Assembly (NCBI RefSeq): GCF_013752535.1
Contig: NZ_CP058348.1
Coordinates: forward strand, 248,001 to 312,000
DNA: 64,000 nucleotides
Direction: 5' to 3'
From: Bdellovibrio sp. KM01
Lineage (GTDB): Bacteria; Bdellovibrionota; Bdellovibrionia; Bdellovibrionales; Bdellovibrionaceae
Part shown: piece by piece, positions 51,347 through 58,077 of the stretch
How the letters are laid out: each line of letters begins with the position of its first letter
Numbering within the stretch: position 1 is the first letter of the stretch
Translations under genes and position numbers: made by a program
The notes under the pieces: generated by a model
The model's database searches: none
The model's input: only the letters and a program-made list of their open reading frames with translations
Told to the model about the DNA's origin: nothing

Positions 51347-51742
51347 ATGTGCAAAACAATAAAACAAAAGGTTCATTTTAAAGCGCCACCTGAAGTGATT
51401 TACAGTTTGCTCACTGATTCCAAAAAGTATGCAGCCTTAACTGGAAAAAAAGCCACTATCGGAAAGAAGGCCGGAGCCGCGTTTTCGGTTTATGGAGGGC
51501 AAGCAACAGGAATCATCGTGGAGCTCGTTCGCAACAAAAGAATTGTCCAAGCATGGCAGGGGCACAGCTTCCCTGATGGAATATTCTCGATGGCAACTTT
51601 CAATTTGAAGCCATCCAAGACCGGCACCGAACTTGTTCTGATTCATCGAGGCGTACCAAAGCAAATGATTCCCTCTATTGAGCTGGGATGGCGCAAATAC
51701 AATTGGGATCCGATAAAAAGATATTTGGAAAAGCAGGCGTAA
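51347..51742 (+). CDS. AHSA1/SRPBCC-domain protein
   Basis: A 131-residue protein; AGGAGG lies seven bases before the ATG at 51347, so the longer upstream frame is not used. The fold is SRPBCC (START-like): KQKVHFKAPPEVIYSLLTDSKKYAALTG, then GAAFSVYGGQATGIIVELVRNKRIVQAW and a C-terminal helix with GWRKYNWDPIKRYLE. Such proteins bind hydrophobic ligands or chaperones. The role is unknown. Confidence 0.82.
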   Translation: MCKTIKQKVHFKAPPEVIYSLLTDSKKYAALTGKKATIGKKAGAAFSVYGGQATGIIVELVRNKRIVQAWQGHSFPDGIFSMATFNLKPSKTGTELVLIHRGVPKQMIPSIELGWRKYNWDPIKRYLEKQA

Positions 51743-51756
51743 TTGGACGCTGTTTT

Positions 51757-52110
51757 TTAGGAGTGAGCTTGGACTAGTTTGGTTAGCATTTTTCCGATTG
51801 CATCCATATCTTGTCTAAGATTGTTGTATTGAGTCTCTGTCAGACAACTTTTGCTGTTAAGAATCTCGATCAGTGACACACATTCGAATACAGATCCTCG
51901 AGCAATCCAAAAGAATTGGCGTTTATCTCCCTGATGCCATCGCCCATTTCCTTCGGCAATATTAAGGGGAATCGAAAGAGATGCCCGAGACAGTTGATCA
52001 CCAAAGCCACGATTAAAAGACTCCTGATGCTCAACGAGAAGCTCTTCGATCGTAGTTGCAAATTGAAGGGAGCGTTTATAAACGTCCAAATTTTCAAAAG
52101 TAAATGCCAT
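51757..52110 (-). CDS. four-helix bundle protein (S23/IVP family)
   Basis: A 117-residue protein. FENLDVYKRSLQFATTIEE and RASLSIPLNIAEGNGRW, then FFWIARGSVFECVSLIEI are the family marks. Members are encoded in insertions in 23S rRNA genes or at free-standing spots, often with repeats, and are related to the accessory protein of diversity-generating retroelements. No reverse transcriptase or variable repeat was seen here. I use the Met at 52110, since the earlier TTG adds residues outside the family. Confidence 0.85.
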   Translation of the reverse strand: MAFTFENLDVYKRSLQFATTIEELLVEHQESFNRGFGDQLSRASLSIPLNIAEGNGRWHQGDKRQFFWIARGSVFECVSLIEILNSKSCLTETQYNNLRQDMDAIGKMLTKLVQAHS

Positions 52111-52185
52111 ACAGAGTAGTGATGCAACCAAGTCGCCAGAACTATCATCTGATTGGTTGCCAAAGAAGGTCTATCGATAATCGAA

Positions 52186-52196
52186 ATTCGAACTCT
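52186..52196. repeat. candidate left attachment core
   Basis: ATTCGAACTCT, in direct orientation with the copy in the T-arm of tRNA-Ser at 57970-57980. It lies where the gene-poor repeat cluster begins. Confidence 0.3.
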
Positions 52197-52197
52197 T

Positions 52198-52308
52198 CCA
52201 TTTTCGATTTTCTATTTTCGTTTTTGCGTGGGTAATTTTTGGCTCGTGCTGCGCACGTCGCGGCGAGAATGGAAAATCGAAAATAGAGGATTTTTGCTTC
52301 GCAAAAAT
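52198..52308. repeat. cluster of inverted repeats in a gene-poor gap
   Basis: Between 52111 and 52568 no intact gene is seen. It holds ATTTTCGATTTTC near 52201 and its reverse complement in GGAAAATCGAAAAT near 52271, a short CGTGC-TGC-GCACG hairpin between them, and a perfect hairpin ATTTTTGC-TTC-GCAAAAAT at 52290-52308. None has a T-tract of terminator type after it. Confidence 0.5.
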
Positions 52309-52344
52309 GGCGGAGAGAGCCACAAAGTAGACGAACACTCTCCG

Positions 52345-52512
52345 GTGGTTATCTTTGAGTTGGAGGCGTATCCAGAACCTAAAGCTTTGTCTGTAGGGGC
52401 TCTTAAGGAGCTTATGGCCGTTTTGGGGTCGACAGTGAAGGTGGCCAAGCATATTGGGGCTTCTCAAGCATTTGTATGGGATAAGCTCGATCGGGCCAAG
52501 AAAAGCCGCTGA
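52345..52512 (+). pseudogene. remnant of a Cro-like helix-turn-helix protein
   Basis: From a GTG at 52345 the frame gives 55 residues. The C-terminal 35 (LKELMAVLGSTVKVAKHIGASQAFVWDKL) read as a helix-turn-helix of the Cro/YdaS kind. The frame is open further upstream, but only through repeat sequence. There is no ribosome binding site. It may be a degraded phage- or element-type regulator. Confidence 0.35.
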
Positions 52513-52568
52513 TAGAGGCCAAATCCATTTAGTCAGTGCTTAAAGAGCCAATGGATGGCTCTTTGGCA

Positions 52569-53381
52569 TTACTTTCTTAAATTGAAAAAATCGATAGCTA
52601 TCGCGCAAAGTTCTTCTTCTTTAGAATCTTTAATTAACGCTTGAGATGTTTTTACTGCATCTAAAAGAATATTTTTAACTTTAATTACGTCGGCCTTCGA
52701 GAGGCTTACAACACCCGAGTAGTGCATGTCTGTAAGTTGCTCTCGATCTAAGGACTCCGCGGATTGAAGACGCCAGTTGGTATGATGTTTTAAAATATTC
52801 TTCGAATCATTACCCAATCGGATTTGTGCTTTGGTCACTGCATAGCCATTTCCTGTGCTAGCGACAAGCCCCGCGCTAATCAAAAAATCTAAAGCTTCGG
52901 TAATTTTTCTTATGGGTAAATGAAAGTAATCAGACAGTGCTTCTCTTGTCCTTAGCTCTGGGATCGTGAGCGCAATATGAAGAGCAGCATAGATCCATGA
53001 ACTATAATAAGTTGCCTGATCAACTTCACTTAATACGTCTTTAGGACCGAGGCGCTTGGTTAAGACGAGTCTTCTCCGCAAGGCTTCATCGATTTGCTCT
53101 TGGAAGAATTCTCTCAAAGCTTTAGTTCCTGCACGATCTTTCTGAACGAGTAGTAAAAAATAAAAGGCTTCTTCTTTAGAATGAGAGAAAAAACCATTCA
53201 GTATCTCTGCCTGCTCAAGGCTTAGATGAGCCTTCTCATGTAGAACCTGTGAAATATAAGTTGGCTGACAATGAAGGGCTTTTGCCATAGCCGCTTTCAC
53301 CCCTTTACGAGTTCCGGGGGCTCCTGTCTTAGCCTCCAAATAGCTTCTGTAGTCTGAAAAATCGAATATTGATTTGTCCAT
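52569..53381 (-). CDS. TIGR02147/DUF4423-family regulator
   Basis: A 270-residue protein. The opening SIFDFSDYRSYLE and the helix-turn-helix-like block GVKAAMAKALHCQPTYISQVLHEKAHLSLEQAEILNGFF define the family, abundant in Bdellovibrio and Fibrobacter. The second half has a winged-helix-like part (REALSDYFHLPIRKITEALDFLISAGLV) and MHYSGVVSLSK. These proteins often sit divergent from a secreted-protein gene, as here, and are thought to be local transcription regulators. Confidence 0.88.
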   Translation of the reverse strand: MDKSIFDFSDYRSYLEAKTGAPGTRKGVKAAMAKALHCQPTYISQVLHEKAHLSLEQAEILNGFFSHSKEEAFYFLLLVQKDRAGTKALREFFQEQIDEALRRRLVLTKRLGPKDVLSEVDQATYYSSWIYAALHIALTIPELRTREALSDYFHLPIRKITEALDFLISAGLVASTGNGYAVTKAQIRLGNDSKNILKHHTNWRLQSAESLDREQLTDMHYSGVVSLSKADVIKVKNILLDAVKTSQALIKDSKEEELCAIAIDFFNLRK

Positions 53382-53408
53382 AAATTCAATACCTTATCGC
53401 CATTATGG

Positions 53409-53446
53409 CAGTAAAACTTTAGTAGTAGTAAATTAATTCAGTAAAA
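53409..53446. promoter_or_regulatory. paired direct repeats in the divergent promoter region
   Basis: CAGTAAAA occurs at 53409-53416 and 53439-53446, 30 bp apart, about three turns of the helix, between the regulator gene and the divergent secreted-protein genes. They could be operator half-sites. Confidence 0.3.
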
Positions 53447-53523
53447 TGATCTATCTCAAATTTATACAGCAAGTTATTTTGCGGGCACTGATAGCTCGAA
53501 ACAAACTAACAAGGAGAATAAAA

Positions 53524-53823
53524 ATGAATAGAAAAACAATGTTAATGATGGCTTTAGTTCTAGGTGGACTTTCAGCACAGGCACACGCCGCAGACCCATA
53601 TTTTGCGCAACGTCAGGTCGATGCGATCAAAAGCCAAGAAAGCCTTATACGTAACGGAATTGCTTCTGGGCAAATCTCAAAAGACCTTTGCATTTACTTT
53701 GTCCAAGGCTTGGCTGATATGAGAAAAAGCGCCTATGTGATAGCCGCGGCTACTGGTGGAGAAAGTTCTCAGTTAAATCAAATTAGTCAGTTAAAGACCA
53801 TGAATATTGATGAGTGCAAATAA
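53524..53823 (+). CDS. small secreted protein with shared C-terminal module
   Basis: A 99-residue protein; AAGGAG precedes the ATG at 53524. The signal peptide ends AHA-A. The mature part holds IASGQISKDLCIYFVQGLADMRKSAY and ends DECK. A similar block is at the C-terminus of the next gene. Two cysteines probably pair. Function unknown. It is divergent from the TIGR02147 gene. Confidence 0.65.
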   Translation: MNRKTMLMMALVLGGLSAQAHAADPYFAQRQVDAIKSQESLIRNGIASGQISKDLCIYFVQGLADMRKSAYVIAAATGGESSQLNQISQLKTMNIDECK

Positions 53824-53903
53824 AACTTAGTCAGAGTTCTTTCGAACAAACAGTGGAGGTTGCAAGTGGTATCCCCCTTGCAGCCTTTTTAATTGGAGGC
53901 TCA

Positions 53904-54950
53904 ATGAAACTGTCTCAAAATAAAACAGCCTATAGAATTCTTGCCTTGGCGACTTCTGTAATCGCTTGCAGCGTTTGCATGGCCTCCTCCAAGCCTGTGA
54001 GCGAAGATTCAATTCGATCTGGGGACTTTGATCAAACTCTCACAAAAGTTCTTAGTAACAAAAAAGAGCCTCTGTTAGATAAATTGACAGTCGACGAAAA
54101 GAGTCTAAAGAAAGCCATAGATCATTCGGTCGACGAGAAAAATGCATTGCGATCATTGGGTGGAAGCAGTGATGGTGGAGGCAATTCCGTCGGACCAACT
54201 TTGTTTGATTTCTACGAAAACCAGGGAACCATTGAAATTACAGTCAACGAACTCATTTCCTTGGAACCACTGGCGCAGAAAAATCTAGCATCTTTAGATA
54301 ATGCAATACCAGCTGTCGATAATATCTTTTCTGGTGGCTTAGGTGGAATCATCGCCAAGTCTTTAGCTGAAAAGAAAATATATCTTGAAAGTAAGCAGAT
54401 CACTTCAGATGCATGTATTAATCAAAGCATGGTTGGTGCGGGTTCGCAAAAAGTTGTAGCTTGTCAATCTGATCTCGAGGTTCGATTTGACGTAAAATGG
54501 TTACGAAATGCCAAACCTCGTGATCGCGCGGGGCTTATCATACATGAGATGCTTTTAGCCTGGGCTCGTACGCGATTAAACGATCCAAAAGATATTTTAG
54601 AGCAGAAAGTACGCATTGTGAATCGCATGATTTTTGACGGAAATATAAATCGCGATATTTTGAATAAGTACTTTGGAGCTCGGTCTTACACGAGAAGCCA
54701 AGTTCAGAGGGCTTCAGAGATCGCCGTCTCTATCAAAAGATTTGAAGCAGCCAATAAGGACCTGTTAAGAGATCCTTCCTACGAATTTGTTCGAATACTT
54801 TTCAAGGGTATTAAGGATGGAAGTATAACGGATGCAACATGCGAGAATTTTGTTGAGGGTTTGCCAGATATGCATAAACAGACTTACAGCACTCTACAGC
54901 AATCCCATCTAGCCACTCCAGAACAACTGTGTTTTGCAATAGTGGATTAA
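53904..54950 (+). CDS. secreted protein with shared C-terminal module
   Basis: A 348-residue protein; TTGGAGG precedes the ATG at 53904. The N-terminal signal has a cysteine-containing core (IACSVCMASS). The middle has a Gly-rich patch and RAGLIIHEMLLAWARTRL, an HE pair that recalls zinc peptidases but without a proven third ligand. The last 35 residues (GIKDGSITDATCENFVEGLPDMHK) resemble the small protein just upstream. Codon use is more AT-rich than in neighbouring chromosomal genes, by eye. Function unknown. Confidence 0.6.
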   Translation: MKLSQNKTAYRILALATSVIACSVCMASSKPVSEDSIRSGDFDQTLTKVLSNKKEPLLDKLTVDEKSLKKAIDHSVDEKNALRSLGGSSDGGGNSVGPTLFDFYENQGTIEITVNELISLEPLAQKNLASLDNAIPAVDNIFSGGLGGIIAKSLAEKKIYLESKQITSDACINQSMVGAGSQKVVACQSDLEVRFDVKWLRNAKPRDRAGLIIHEMLLAWARTRLNDPKDILEQKVRIVNRMIFDGNINRDILNKYFGARSYTRSQVQRASEIAVSIKRFEAANKDLLRDPSYEFVRILFKGIKDGSITDATCENFVEGLPDMHKQTYSTLQQSHLATPEQLCFAIVD

Positions 54951-54981
54951 GATCCTTGTTTCTAACCCAATATATTGATCA

Positions 54982-55019
54982 AAAGGCACAGACTTAAAAA
55001 AATGTGCCTTTATTTTTTT
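54982..55019 (+). terminator. intrinsic terminator
   Basis: Perfect 9-bp arms at 54982-54990 and 55003-55011 with a 12-nt A-rich loop, followed by A and seven T. It ends the secreted-protein transcript. Confidence 0.85.
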
Positions 55020-55112
55020 CGTGACCTTGCCAATTTTAAGATCGTTATCATCTTCCTAGGGCTCTTTATGAAAGGAGCCATATGAAAACATAATTACCTT
55101 AGGAGGTTACGC

Positions 55113-55133
55113 ATGAATCGAGATAAATTTTAA
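55113..55133 (+). CDS. six-codon mini-ORF before the relaxation-like gene
   Basis: ATG at 55113 has a near-perfect AGGAGG at 55101-55106 and encodes MNRDKF. Its TAA ends one base before the ATG of the next gene, so translation can restart there. The next gene has no ribosome binding site of its own. An even shorter ATG-AAA-ACA-TAA lies at 55082, after GAAAGGAG. Confidence 0.5.
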   Translation: MNRDKF

Positions 55134-55134
55134 C

Positions 55135-55959
55135 ATGATCCTTCAGCCAAGAGACCTGTTGCTCTTGGAAAGTCTTAAGAAATACGGTGTTCTTTCAACA
55201 CCTCAAGTGATCCGACTTCACTTCCAATCAATCGCAAAGACCACAGCACTCAGACGTTTACGAGCACTAGCTCATGGAACTTTCATCCGTCGTTCAGTTC
55301 CATTGGACGAGGGGACAAGTACATGGACTCTTGGACTCAAGGGAAAACGACTGCTCGCAGTTGAAGAGTCGATGCAGTTCTCAAATCGCAATACAATCTA
55401 TCATGATGTTCTTTTGAACGACGTTCGAATGAAATTTGAGTCCATGGGATTGGGAAGCGATTGGACTCCCGAGTACCATTTAAAGTCCCATGCTTTTAAA
55501 AACTATAAATATCGTCACGCTAAGGAACAACTCATCCCAGACGGATTGTTGGTTGAACCTATTAAAGGCAAAGACATTAAAATGGCCATTGAGCTGGAGC
55601 TCACCAGGAAAAGTGAATTAAGATACAAGAACATCTTTCATGAATACCGAAGTATTAACCTTGATCATGTGTGGTACTTCGTAAAAAGCATTAGGGACAA
55701 AGAAGCGATCAGCAAAATAGCTAAGAGCTGTTTTAATTTTGACCTAAAAATGCTCCTGTTTTCGACCATATCGGATTTTCTAAAGGATGAAATTCCTCAG
55801 ATCTACTTCGCTGACAAGCAAGAACCGATGCCACTAACGAGAATCCAATTTGATCACTCTATGATCTATTCCCCTGCTCATAGTTCTGATCATGGGGTGA
55901 GCAGGCTCGAGGACCAAGAAATTGAGATTATGGAAGAACCTATGTCCTTGATTTCATAA
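55135..55959 (+). CDS. replication-relaxation family protein
   Basis: A 274-residue protein. The N-terminal winged helix (LLLESLKKYGVLSTPQVIRLHF, TTALRRLRAL) is followed by a nuclease-like core with LIPDGLLVEP, then AIELELTRKSELRYKNIFHEY, which recalls a PD-(D/E)xK site. The family is found on plasmids and integrated elements and is named for a role in plasmid replication. The start lies one base after the stop of a mini-ORF with a strong ribosome binding site. It is upstream of the recombinase and part of the putative element. Confidence 0.8.
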   Translation: MILQPRDLLLLESLKKYGVLSTPQVIRLHFQSIAKTTALRRLRALAHGTFIRRSVPLDEGTSTWTLGLKGKRLLAVEESMQFSNRNTIYHDVLLNDVRMKFESMGLGSDWTPEYHLKSHAFKNYKYRHAKEQLIPDGLLVEPIKGKDIKMAIELELTRKSELRYKNIFHEYRSINLDHVWYFVKSIRDKEAISKIAKSCFNFDLKMLLFSTISDFLKDEIPQIYFADKQEPMPLTRIQFDHSMIYSPAHSSDHGVSRLEDQEIEIMEEPMSLIS

Positions 55960-55963
55960 CCCA

Positions 55964-56082
55964 ACTCCCTCATTCCAACGGCCCTGCAGGCCGGGCTTCT
56001 CCACTCCTGACCCCTCACCCCCAACGTATGGTGGTAAGGGGTCAGGAGTGGAGAAGCCAAGAGAGGAATGGAATGAGAGAGT
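55964..56082. repeat. compound inverted repeat, 22-bp perfect inner arms
   Basis: Inner arms of 22 bp at 55994-56015 and 56037-56058 match perfectly around a 21-nt loop. Outer arms of 14 bp at 55964-55977 and 56069-56082 match with one mismatch. A small CGGCC-CTGCA-GGCCG hairpin sits in the left internal loop near 55979-55993. There is no T-tract after it. It fills the gap between the relaxation-like gene and the recombinase unit. Confidence 0.85.
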
Positions 56083-56183
56083 TTAGTGTGTAGTGGTGGA
56101 TAAGAGTATGGGTAAGGAGAGAAGAAAGGAGTGGGAATAGAAGTTAGAAGAGATCGGTAACATTTTTTAAAGGAGGTATTTTT

Positions 56184-56210
56184 ATGAAAACAAAGGAACT
56201 ATTTAGTTGA
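56184..56210 (+). CDS. eight-codon mini-ORF overlapping the next start
   Basis: ATG at 56184 follows AAAGGAGG and encodes MKTKELFS. The TGA at 56208-56210 overlaps the TTG start of the following gene at 56207, the form expected for translational coupling. Confidence 0.5.
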   Translation: MKTKELFS

Positions 56211-56398
56211 TAATAGAGGACCTAAAGATTGAGCAGCAGCAAATCAGCATCGGTGAAAGCGAATTAAACCGCAAACGTTCGCAGCTGATAGCGGCCTTGC
56301 TTGAGATTGAAACACTCTTAAGATCCCAGGAGGAAAAGCTTTTAGTAACCACACAAAATGACCGACAAGAAGAGGTCGTTTGGAAGGAGGCCGCATGA
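56207..56398 (+). CDS. small coiled-coil protein before the recombinase
   Basis: A 63-residue acidic protein, one long helix with heptad-like Leu/Ile spacing. It opens with TTG inside the stop of an eight-codon mini-ORF and ends with an ATGA overlap with the recombinase gene. Its own ribosome binding site is absent, so it depends on coupling. It may be a recombinase partner such as a directionality factor, which is a guess. Confidence 0.55.
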   Translation: MIIEDLKIEQQQISIGESELNRKRSQLIAALLEIETLLRSQEEKLLVTTQNDRQEEVVWKEAA

Positions 56399-58077
56399 AT
56401 AGAGTTGCCATATATCTACGTGTATCGACCGAGGAGCAAGCAAAAATTTTGGAAGGCTCTCTGGTCTCTCAACGACGCCGAGCCGAAGAATACATCGAAG
56501 GACAAAATCGCAGAGAACCCAATTGGGGGATGATAGTTGATGTCTATTGTGATGAAGCCAAATCTGGCAAGGACATGAATCGTCCTGAGTTCCAAAGAAT
56601 GCTTTCGGATATTCGTGTGGGCAGAATCAACTTAGTTTTAGCATCCGAGCTATCAAGGTTGTCACGATCCATTAAGGATTTTTGCAGCCTCTTGGATTTT
56701 TTCAAAGAATACAAAGTTAAACTTGTAACCTTGCGCGAGCAGTTTGATACCACGACGGCTGCTGGTGAGCTGATGATGTTTAACCTCGTGAACTTCAATC
56801 AATTTGAACGCAAGCAAACTGGCGAGCGCATCACCGCCAACTTTACTAGCCGTGCGGAACGAGGCCTTTGGAATGGCGGCGTGATTCCGCTTGGGTACAA
56901 GCGCAATCCAGAAAATCCAGGAAATCTTTTGATAAATGAAGAAGAGTCATCGTCGATTAAGATGATTTTCCAAGTGTTCTTAGAAACGAAGAACCTTCGT
57001 CAGACTTGTTTGAAGTTGAATGCAATGGGCGTGCGCACGAAGGCCTATATTAATTCAAAAGGTGAATCACGAGGCGGAAACAAGTTTACGGTGGCAAGTC
57101 TTCATCATCTTTTAACCAACGCGACCCTTATAGGCATGAGAGAGATCAATAAGAAGCGTGGTGATATACGCCAAGTGAAAGCATCATGGTCCGCAATTAT
57201 TAATGCCGAAGACTTTGAGGTTGTGCAAAAGATACTCGAGTCCAATAGAAGAAGATTCAAGCCGAACGATTGGAAGACTTATCCCTATCCGTTAACGGGA
57301 AAGATCATTTGTGGCGATTGTGGTCGTCACTTGAATGGCAAGAGTGCTCATGGAAAAACTCAAAAGCACCACTACTATGATCACAATAGAACTTTAAATG
57401 CCGTCGGAGCACCGAAACACAAGTGTCAGATCCAGAGAGTTCGAGCTGGTAAGTTCGAAGATATGATTTTGGCATCGCTCAAAAGTATTTTGAGTCAGCC
57501 CTCACTAATTAAAAGTGCTATTGCTGCGTATGAGATTTCCAATAACAAAGAGCTGCCTTTGGTGGAATCAAGACTTAAAGCTGTTTCCTCTGAGATAAAA
57601 AGCCATGACAAGAAGGCTCAGAACATCATGCAAAGAATAGAAGAGTTACCGCCGGATCTATCTGCGGAATTGTTCTATAAACGTCTAACGGAAATAAATA
57701 GAAAGATTCAGGAACTCAAAGCACAGCATTTGGAGTTGGAGTCTCAAAAAAGAAAAACAAGTTTGCAGGGGGTTTCAGGGAGCTCGATCAAGGCTCGGAT
57801 TGAATATGCGATTAAACATCTCGCCGAAGCACCCAAGGAAAAACACCGTGAGGTGTTTGAGAATGTTCTGCAGTTCGCAGAGATTCATCCGACTAAAATT
57901 AAAATGGGTATTTATGGAGGTCACCCTATCGAGGGTTCGACTACTATCAAAATTGGCGGACAGGGAGAGATTCGAACTCTCGGTAGGCTTTTGACCTACA
58001 CACGCGTTCCAGGCGTGCGCCTTCAGCCACTCGGCCACCTGTCCATTCGGGAAAGTTCTGAAGAGGTGACAACATAA
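56395..58077 (+). CDS. large serine recombinase
   Basis: A 560-residue site-specific recombinase. The ATG at 56395 follows AAGGAGG and overlaps the previous stop. The resolvase domain has IYLRVSTEEQ with catalytic Ser11, SELSRLSRS and TAAGELMMFN. The recombinase domain follows (NLRQTCLKLNAMGVRT), a zinc ribbon at about 305-345 (ICGDCG and later HKCQ), and a coiled coil. The last 41 residues are abnormal: codons 520-550 are the antisense of tRNA-Ser and 551-560 run beyond it. It is the likely integrase of the element, placed at its own target site. Confidence 0.92.
   Translation: MNRVAIYLRVSTEEQAKILEGSLVSQRRRAEEYIEGQNRREPNWGMIVDVYCDEAKSGKDMNRPEFQRMLSDIRVGRINLVLASELSRLSRSIKDFCSLLDFFKEYKVKLVTLREQFDTTTAAGELMMFNLVNFNQFERKQTGERITANFTSRAERGLWNGGVIPLGYKRNPENPGNLLINEEESSSIKMIFQVFLETKNLRQTCLKLNAMGVRTKAYINSKGESRGGNKFTVASLHHLLTNATLIGMREINKKRGDIRQVKASWSAIINAEDFEVVQKILESNRRRFKPNDWKTYPYPLTGKIICGDCGRHLNGKSAHGKTQKHHYYDHNRTLNAVGAPKHKCQIQRVRAGKFEDMILASLKSILSQPSLIKSAIAAYEISNNKELPLVESRLKAVSSEIKSHDKKAQNIMQRIEELPPDLSAELFYKRLTEINRKIQELKAQHLELESQKRKTSLQGVSGSSIKARIEYAIKHLAEAPKEKHREVFENVLQFAEIHPTKIKMGIYGGHPIEGSTTIKIGGQGEIRTLGRLLTYTRVPGVRLQPLGHLSIRESSEEVTT
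57954..58044 (-). tRNA. tRNA-Ser(GGA)
   Basis: On the minus strand the acceptor stem GGACAGG pairs with CCTGTCC, followed by G and an encoded CCA. The anticodon stem CACGC/GCGTG closes loop CTGGAAC with anticodon GGA. A long variable arm (about 17 nt) is typical of tRNA-Ser, and GGTTCGAATC-type T-loop sequence is present as GTTCGAATC. The recombinase gene crosses it antisense. Confidence 0.96.
57970..57980. repeat. candidate right attachment core in tRNA-Ser
   Basis: ATTCGAACTCT in the T-arm is matched exactly at 52186-52196 (13 of 14 over a slightly longer stretch). An 11-bp match within 6 kb can occur by chance; a 10-bp match at 62738 shows the background. Confidence 0.3.

Follow-up and report, generated by a model that had tools for sequence, protein, structure and literature searches.

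What is the function of the compound inverted repeat which lies between a relaxase-like gene and a recombinase gene in Bdellovibrio sp. KM01? The initial annotation of the window, i.e. the 64,000-nt stretch that was analyzed as a whole (contig NZ_CP058348.1, positions 248,001 to 312,000), had described three nested or adjacent hairpins and left open whether they represent a replication origin, a transfer or recombination site, or a structured RNA. Locating the arms again, we recovered the perfect 22-bp inner repeat (55994-56015/56037-56058) and the side hairpin CGGCC-CTGCA-GGCCG (55979-55993), whose five pairs are sited between the outer and the inner arms, while the outer arms, previously given as 14 nt, measure 15 nt with one mismatch (55963-55977/56069-56083). 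When two mismatches are allowed, the inner arms extend to 30 nt (55994-56023/56029-56058; 93%) around a 5-nt loop. The single-stranded DNA fold of region 55940-56110 reached -47.7 kcal/mol as compared to -19.9 (sd 2.96) for 200 dinucleotide shuffles of the same region (z = -9.4), none of which (0/200) matched the native fold. No T tract follows 3' of the repeat, as had been noted before, and the scan for intrinsic terminators, i.e. GC-rich hairpins with a T tract, was likewise negative. The Rfam scan of the window returned a tRNA only and no family for the hairpin, and the scan for sigma-70 promoters gave nothing relevant to it.

Table. Features at the hairpin locus and of the surrounding element (window positions).
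Feature	Position	Strand	Basis
Candidate origin of transfer (oriT), nested hairpin	55963..56083	+	arms located; kept with compensating changes in G022 and G020; match of covariance model R1 at 56002-56050
Conserved motif of the apical loop, CACCCCCAACG; C-rich followed by (A/C/T)ACG in the family consensus	56016..56026	+	alignment A2 and loop tally over 77 unique loci
Gene for MOBC-family relaxase (PF13814 Replic_Relax), predicted winged-helix N-terminal domain and PD-(D/E)XK nuclease domain	55135..55959	+	profile, motif, fold
C-free purine-rich tract, 96 nt, directly 3' of the inner hairpin	56059..56154	+	C-free run scan of the window
Small coiled-coil-like ORF, 63 aa, TTG start	56207..56398	+	kept in G022 and G020
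Putative integrative mobilizable element of roughly 6.2 kb with AATTGG at either end (51741-51746, 57951-57956); ends tentative	51741..57956		empty site in G012, junctions
Large serine recombinase, integrase of the element	56395..58077	+	PF00239, PF07508, PF13408
tRNA-Ser(GGA), integration target	57954..58044	-	Rfam scan; empty site in G012

It had been argued that perfect arms of this length are maintained by selection, and that relatives carrying both flanking genes but no repeat, or one with decayed arms, would speak against a function. Genus-wide, only genomes G022 and G020 share both the relaxase and the recombinase gene with the window, and both have kept the structure. The lower stem and the side hairpin carry compensating changes: CGGCC/GGCCG of the window is replaced by CGCCA/TGGCG in the relatives, and the lower-stem positions change in step as well, while the upper stem and the loop are identical in all three. 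Arms that change in step among relatives support the idea that selection preserves them.

The hairpin is not confined to these three genomes. In further genera and families, more distantly related PF13814 genes with unrelated genes downstream are likewise accompanied by a hairpin top of the form GACC[A/C]C ... C-rich ... [A/C/T]ACG ... GGTC. In a seed alignment of 19 hairpin tops (A2), which had been selected for exact stems of 9 or more bases, 93% of the cells pair and 70 cells are doubly changed over 15 pairs, with 0 one-sided changes; the covariation score of this alignment was 0.596 as compared to at most 0.107 when the arms were slid. A covariance model of the apical part of the hairpin (R1), built from Bdellovibrionota only, found matches in 77 of the 144 genomes of the class (E <= 0.01), with up to 14 copies per genome. 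Within the genus of the window, at least 13 of 24 genomes are without an R1 match and served as negative control. Three hairpin copies in genome G032 (contigs C26, C53 and C76) lie within 70 bases of contig ends, which might mean that assembly is interrupted by the hairpin or by some repeated element. Separately from R1, a DNA pattern of the hairpin top alone was used to scan 84,980 species and yielded 88 loci, mostly in Bdellovibrionota. The five pairs below the pattern, which the pattern leaves unconstrained, are 95% Watson-Crick and 1% G-T in the 77 unique loci, whereas Watson-Crick pairs amounted to 33-36% when the arms were slid by one base and to 42% with shuffled partners. Alignment A5, which mixes in reverse-strand matches, was left out of these pair counts, and a nearest-neighbor DNA match in G113 (E 0.002, 23 nt) was dropped as chance. 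The pattern also matched in the Thermoleophilia (Actinomycetota) MAGs RYN_232/237/238 (loci L123, L131, L148, L155, L169, L180, L192, L199 and L200), which represent either a third phylum or mis-binned contigs; only L123 among these loci has a relaxase-family gene near the hairpin.

Which enzyme could act on such a structure? The protein encoded next to the hairpin scored 36.7 bits against PF13814 (cut-off 25.3) and matched the NCBIfam model NF041423 'MobC family' with E 3.8e-8, albeit under the curated 200-bit cut-off of that model. A survey of streptococcal integrative mobilizable elements (IMEs) treated PF13814 as equivalent to MobC (PMC5357655). Residues H90, P135-D136, E153, E155, K159 and R163 are invariant in 26 relaxase sequences, and the PD...ExE...K motif corresponds to the pattern of PD-(D/E)XK nucleases, as which the MOBC relaxases have been described (PMC12857230). 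Aligned by hhalign, the relaxase family matched the relaxase of plasmid pAM373 over 182 columns at 17% identity (probability 94.6, E 6.8e-8); the latter protein also matches PF13814, and pAM373 is typed MOBC. The predicted structure of the window's relaxase contains a MarR-like winged helix. VIA-align of the whole model matched this winged-helix domain and nothing else, and therefore the nuclease domain was folded alone. The solved structures nearest to the C-terminal domain model were the restriction endonucleases PaqCI and FokI, with PaqCI at a probability of 0.98 but an E-value of only 6e-3. Taken together, profiles, motif, homology to the pAM373 relaxase and modeled fold indicate that the neighboring 'Replic_Relax' protein belongs to the MOBC relaxase family. 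Of the classical relaxase families, MOBC has remained the most poorly understood, and few of its origins have been characterized.

The location of the hairpin between a relaxase-like gene and a recombinase, to which the initial annotation had drawn attention, is true for the window but incidental, as elsewhere the hairpin lies beside the relaxase gene with other neighbors. A Replic_Relax gene is present within 1.5 kb of 26 of the 30 best R1 matches, on the same strand in all cases (26/26). Likewise, 56 of the 88 pattern loci have a relaxase-family gene within 1.5 kb and again always on the same strand (56/56), the gene being located 5' of the hairpin at 45 and 3' at 11 of them. Such a constant orientation, with the gene on either side, is more readily explained by a DNA site that acts in a strand-specific manner next to its enzyme's gene than by an element of an untranslated region. 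At the remaining 32 pattern loci, the search of the same 1.5-kb range yielded no relaxase gene; some of these are at contig ends and at least 8 have an integrase instead. At several of the loci without a detected relaxase gene, the hairpin is followed after 180-284 nt by the gene for a serine recombinase of the type seen in the window, two have tyrosine integrases, and G011 likewise combines hairpin and integrase. Such loci may be oriT-only elements, the alternatives being divergent relaxases and contig ends. Two peculiarities were seen in G020. The relaxase ORF at L005/L093 is devoid of the stop codon present in the window and reads through the whole hairpin. In addition, the left part of the element is present once more, as an incomplete copy at a contig start (L025; G020:C5:2-366), and here the 5' end of the relaxase gene is fused directly to recombinase sequence.

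Plasmid pAM373 carries upstream of its relaxase gene a 25-bp perfect repeat with CCTGACCA, which is accompanied by an outer repeat of 18 bp, also perfect, and by five direct repeats of 12 bp each. Model R1 matched this hairpin as well as hairpins of four more Enterococcus MOBC plasmids, with E-values of 9.5e-10 to 6.7e-4 in 65 kb. Each match is located just 5' of the relaxase gene and all five display nested inner and outer repeats, the outer ones being perfect and 17-19 bp in length; the loops are CAACG or CCACG. The window's hairpin resembles the oriT regions of the Enterococcus faecalis plasmids pAM373 and pAD1 (relaxase TraX/Orf8) in its adjoining, co-oriented MOBC relaxase gene, in an inner perfect inverted repeat with TTCCTGACCA and an (A/C)ACG loop (CTGACC and an ACG loop in the window), and in a second, outer inverted repeat, which is perfect there and has one mismatch in 15 nt here. 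It differs by the C-free tract 3' of the hairpin and the side hairpin. It is also found in another phylum, on an element that has a serine recombinase and is integrated at a tRNA gene, and the relaxase is a distant homolog. Moreover, the 4-5 short direct repeats that characterize enterococcal MOBC origins, and which we found in pAM373, L213, L214 and L211, were not detected in the window. In pAD1, TraX has its binding site in five direct repeats at a distance of about 70-120 bp from nic (PMC12857230). In L211, which is a relative rather than pAD1 itself, the last direct repeat ends at 2052 and the hairpin occupies 2104-2177; the pAD1 distance would accordingly place nic in or beside the hairpin. 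A search of the CloDF13 record NC_002119, in which the MobC gene is unannotated, with R1 revealed no hairpin.

The hairpin is part of a discrete insertion. In the close relative G012, synteny is maintained to the left and to the right whereas 51737-57948 is missing. G012 thus provides an empty site, and the region is therefore regarded as an insertion at the 3' end of a tRNA gene. The recombinase gene reads into tRNA-Ser(GGA) on the opposite strand, so that the tRNA-Ser sequence supplies its 3' end in the integrated state, and across the predicted circle junction the ORF has a different C terminus. At further hairpin loci, genes for recombinases of this type likewise terminate at or close to tRNA genes for Met, Ala, Val, Leu, Glu, Phe, Gln and Arg, and a viral-contig scan with the recombinase detected no relatives. 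With its empty site in a relative, its own integrase, a relaxase and a candidate oriT but no type IV secretion system (T4SS) genes of its own, the region has the makeup of an IME with a relaxase (iMOB), while the loci combining hairpin and integrase without a detected relaxase gene resemble oriT-only (iOriT) IMEs. MOBC relaxases are rare among described IMEs, with 2 in the streptococcal survey (PMC5357655), whereas a large set is found here in Bdellovibrionota. Further genes of the element encode a protein of the 23S rRNA-intervening-sequence family (PF05635; 51757-52131, minus strand), which is cargo at the left end, and a DUF4423 helix-turn-helix regulator (52569-53381, minus strand); a DUF4423 gene also adjoins the hairpin at L142. 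Islands integrated at tRNA genes have been noted earlier in Bdellovibrio and were only loosely attributed to ICE-like elements (PMC3539863).

Conjugation genes are found near many copies of the hairpin. A VirB4-type gene (PF19044) is present within 20 kb of 36 of the 100 R1 matches listed, at distances of 6-18 kb (median 7.5 kb; nearly all 7-10 kb). In G022, one operon encodes VirB2, VirB4, VirB6-, VirB8- and VirB9-like proteins, a coupling protein and the relaxase and includes the hairpin, and the serine recombinase of this conjugation element is 41% identical to that of the window over 366 residues. The same conjugation operon is present in G012. G013 and G023 have the hairpin ahead of the relaxase gene, and the gene that follows the latter encodes a protein resembling the coupling proteins of L014 and L018. 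The genome of the window itself (G000) yielded no VirB4 with profiles PF03135 and PF19044, and therefore the element would need a helper from outside. An apparent absence of VirB4 from the entire genus by PF03135 was discarded as a limit of that model, since PF19044 did find VirB4 in the genus.

The flank 3' of the hairpin is unusual in its composition. Its C-free run is the longest in the window, the runner-up having 37 bases. Downstream of the 77 unique hairpins the bases are 8% C and 33% G, with a median longest C-free run of 40 nt, and we therefore regard the C-poor flank as a trait of the family; it is possibly a relaxosome-binding or unstructured region. The 63-aa ORF farther downstream had no match in the family search. 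Its TTG start codon overlaps the stop codon of a very short leader ORF (about 56184-56210), which has a strong Shine-Dalgarno sequence. Tiny ORFs encoding MNRDKF and MKTKELFS precede the relaxase gene and the 63-aa ORF, respectively (55115-55137 and 56175-56210), and the second one is kept in G022 and G020. Both have strong Shine-Dalgarno sequences and stops that overlap or abut the next start, an arrangement which, judged from the sequence, suggests translational coupling.

How do the functions originally offered for the repeat fare in light of these data? The shared orientation of hairpin and relaxase gene, and the purine-rich leader with a strong Shine-Dalgarno sequence that follows the hairpin, could be expected from a structured RNA in the operon leader regulating the relaxase or recombinase genes. 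It could also be a separate sRNA, as in mobilization of SGI1, which requires an sRNA (PMC9299015). Covariation as strong as observed here would suit an RNA, but one-sided (G-U) changes are absent from the seed alignment, whose seeds were chosen by exact stems, and amount to 1% in the pattern set. This near-absence of G-U pairs favors a role as DNA over one as RNA. Because, in addition, neither a terminator nor an Rfam family was detected and the hairpin may stand on either side of the relaxase gene and have unrelated genes as neighbors, we disfavor the RNA option. An RNA would also have to accommodate the G020 relaxase ORF passing through it and leaves the match to the Enterococcus oriT region unexplained; altogether, we consider it quite unlikely. 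A role as double-strand or single-strand replication origin of the excised circle, possibly alongside transfer, draws on the precedent of rolling-circle replicons. CRESS viruses and pT181-type plasmids use hairpin nicking origins with conserved loops in variable stems. They share with the present family the variable covarying stem, the conserved loop and the adjoining gene for a nicking enzyme, but these enzymes are of the HUH or Rep_trans type, in contrast to the predicted PD-(D/E)XK nuclease domain found here. Relaxases are also able to start rolling-circle synthesis (PMC5357655). Nonetheless, no replication initiator was recognized among the family-searched proteins of the element, and the hairpins co-occur with complete conjugation operons, making an origin of replication a very improbable explanation.

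Location 5' of the recombinase gene in the window, and about 180-284 nt ahead of such a gene at several loci at which no relaxase gene was detected, could likewise point to a site used by the large serine recombinase, either attP or a regulatory one. But the element ends map elsewhere, away from the hairpin, which speaks strongly against it as the site of recombination. The hairpin also occurs with tyrosine integrases, with relaxase and coupling protein where no such recombinase is nearby, and on Enterococcus plasmids, leaving hardly any probability for this option. The transfer site, in contrast, is strongly supported by the linkage to the relaxase gene and by the match in Enterococcus. We conclude that the hairpin is very probably the oriT of a small, roughly 6.2-kb integrative mobilizable element at tRNA-Ser, which would be served by the adjacent MOBC-type relaxase.

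If the hairpin acts as oriT, the serine recombinase would excise the element, and the MOBC-type relaxase would recognize the hairpin by the shape of its stem and the conserved C-rich/ACG apical loop, probably in the form of an extruded cruciform or a single-stranded hairpin. The enzyme would then nick one strand in or beside the hairpin, presumably in or near the conserved loop, and the coupling protein and T4SS of a helper element would carry this strand into a new cell. There, it would be circularized and the serine recombinase would integrate the element at the 3' end of tRNA-Ser. More speculatively, a PD-(D/E)XK relaxase might cut the extruded single-stranded hairpin at the C-rich/ACG loop, as a structure-specific start of conjugation that, unlike the linear nic sites of HUH enzymes, would extend from Bacillota to Bdellovibrionota and be common to self-transmissible, relaxase-carrying and oriT-only elements. 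We put this generalization forward tentatively and consider it possible rather than probable.

MOBC origins as such are already known. New are the covarying consensus spanning two phyla, the many carriers in Bdellovibrionota, the form free of direct repeats and the C-poor flank; in the literature searched, which covered few subscription journals, we found no earlier description of this hairpin family. A covarying hairpin common to two phyla provides a testable consensus for MOBC origins, and its model a tool to search for oriT-only hitchhiker islands. The elements carrying the hairpin are a candidate route for the exchange of tRNA-integrated islands among predatory bacteria.
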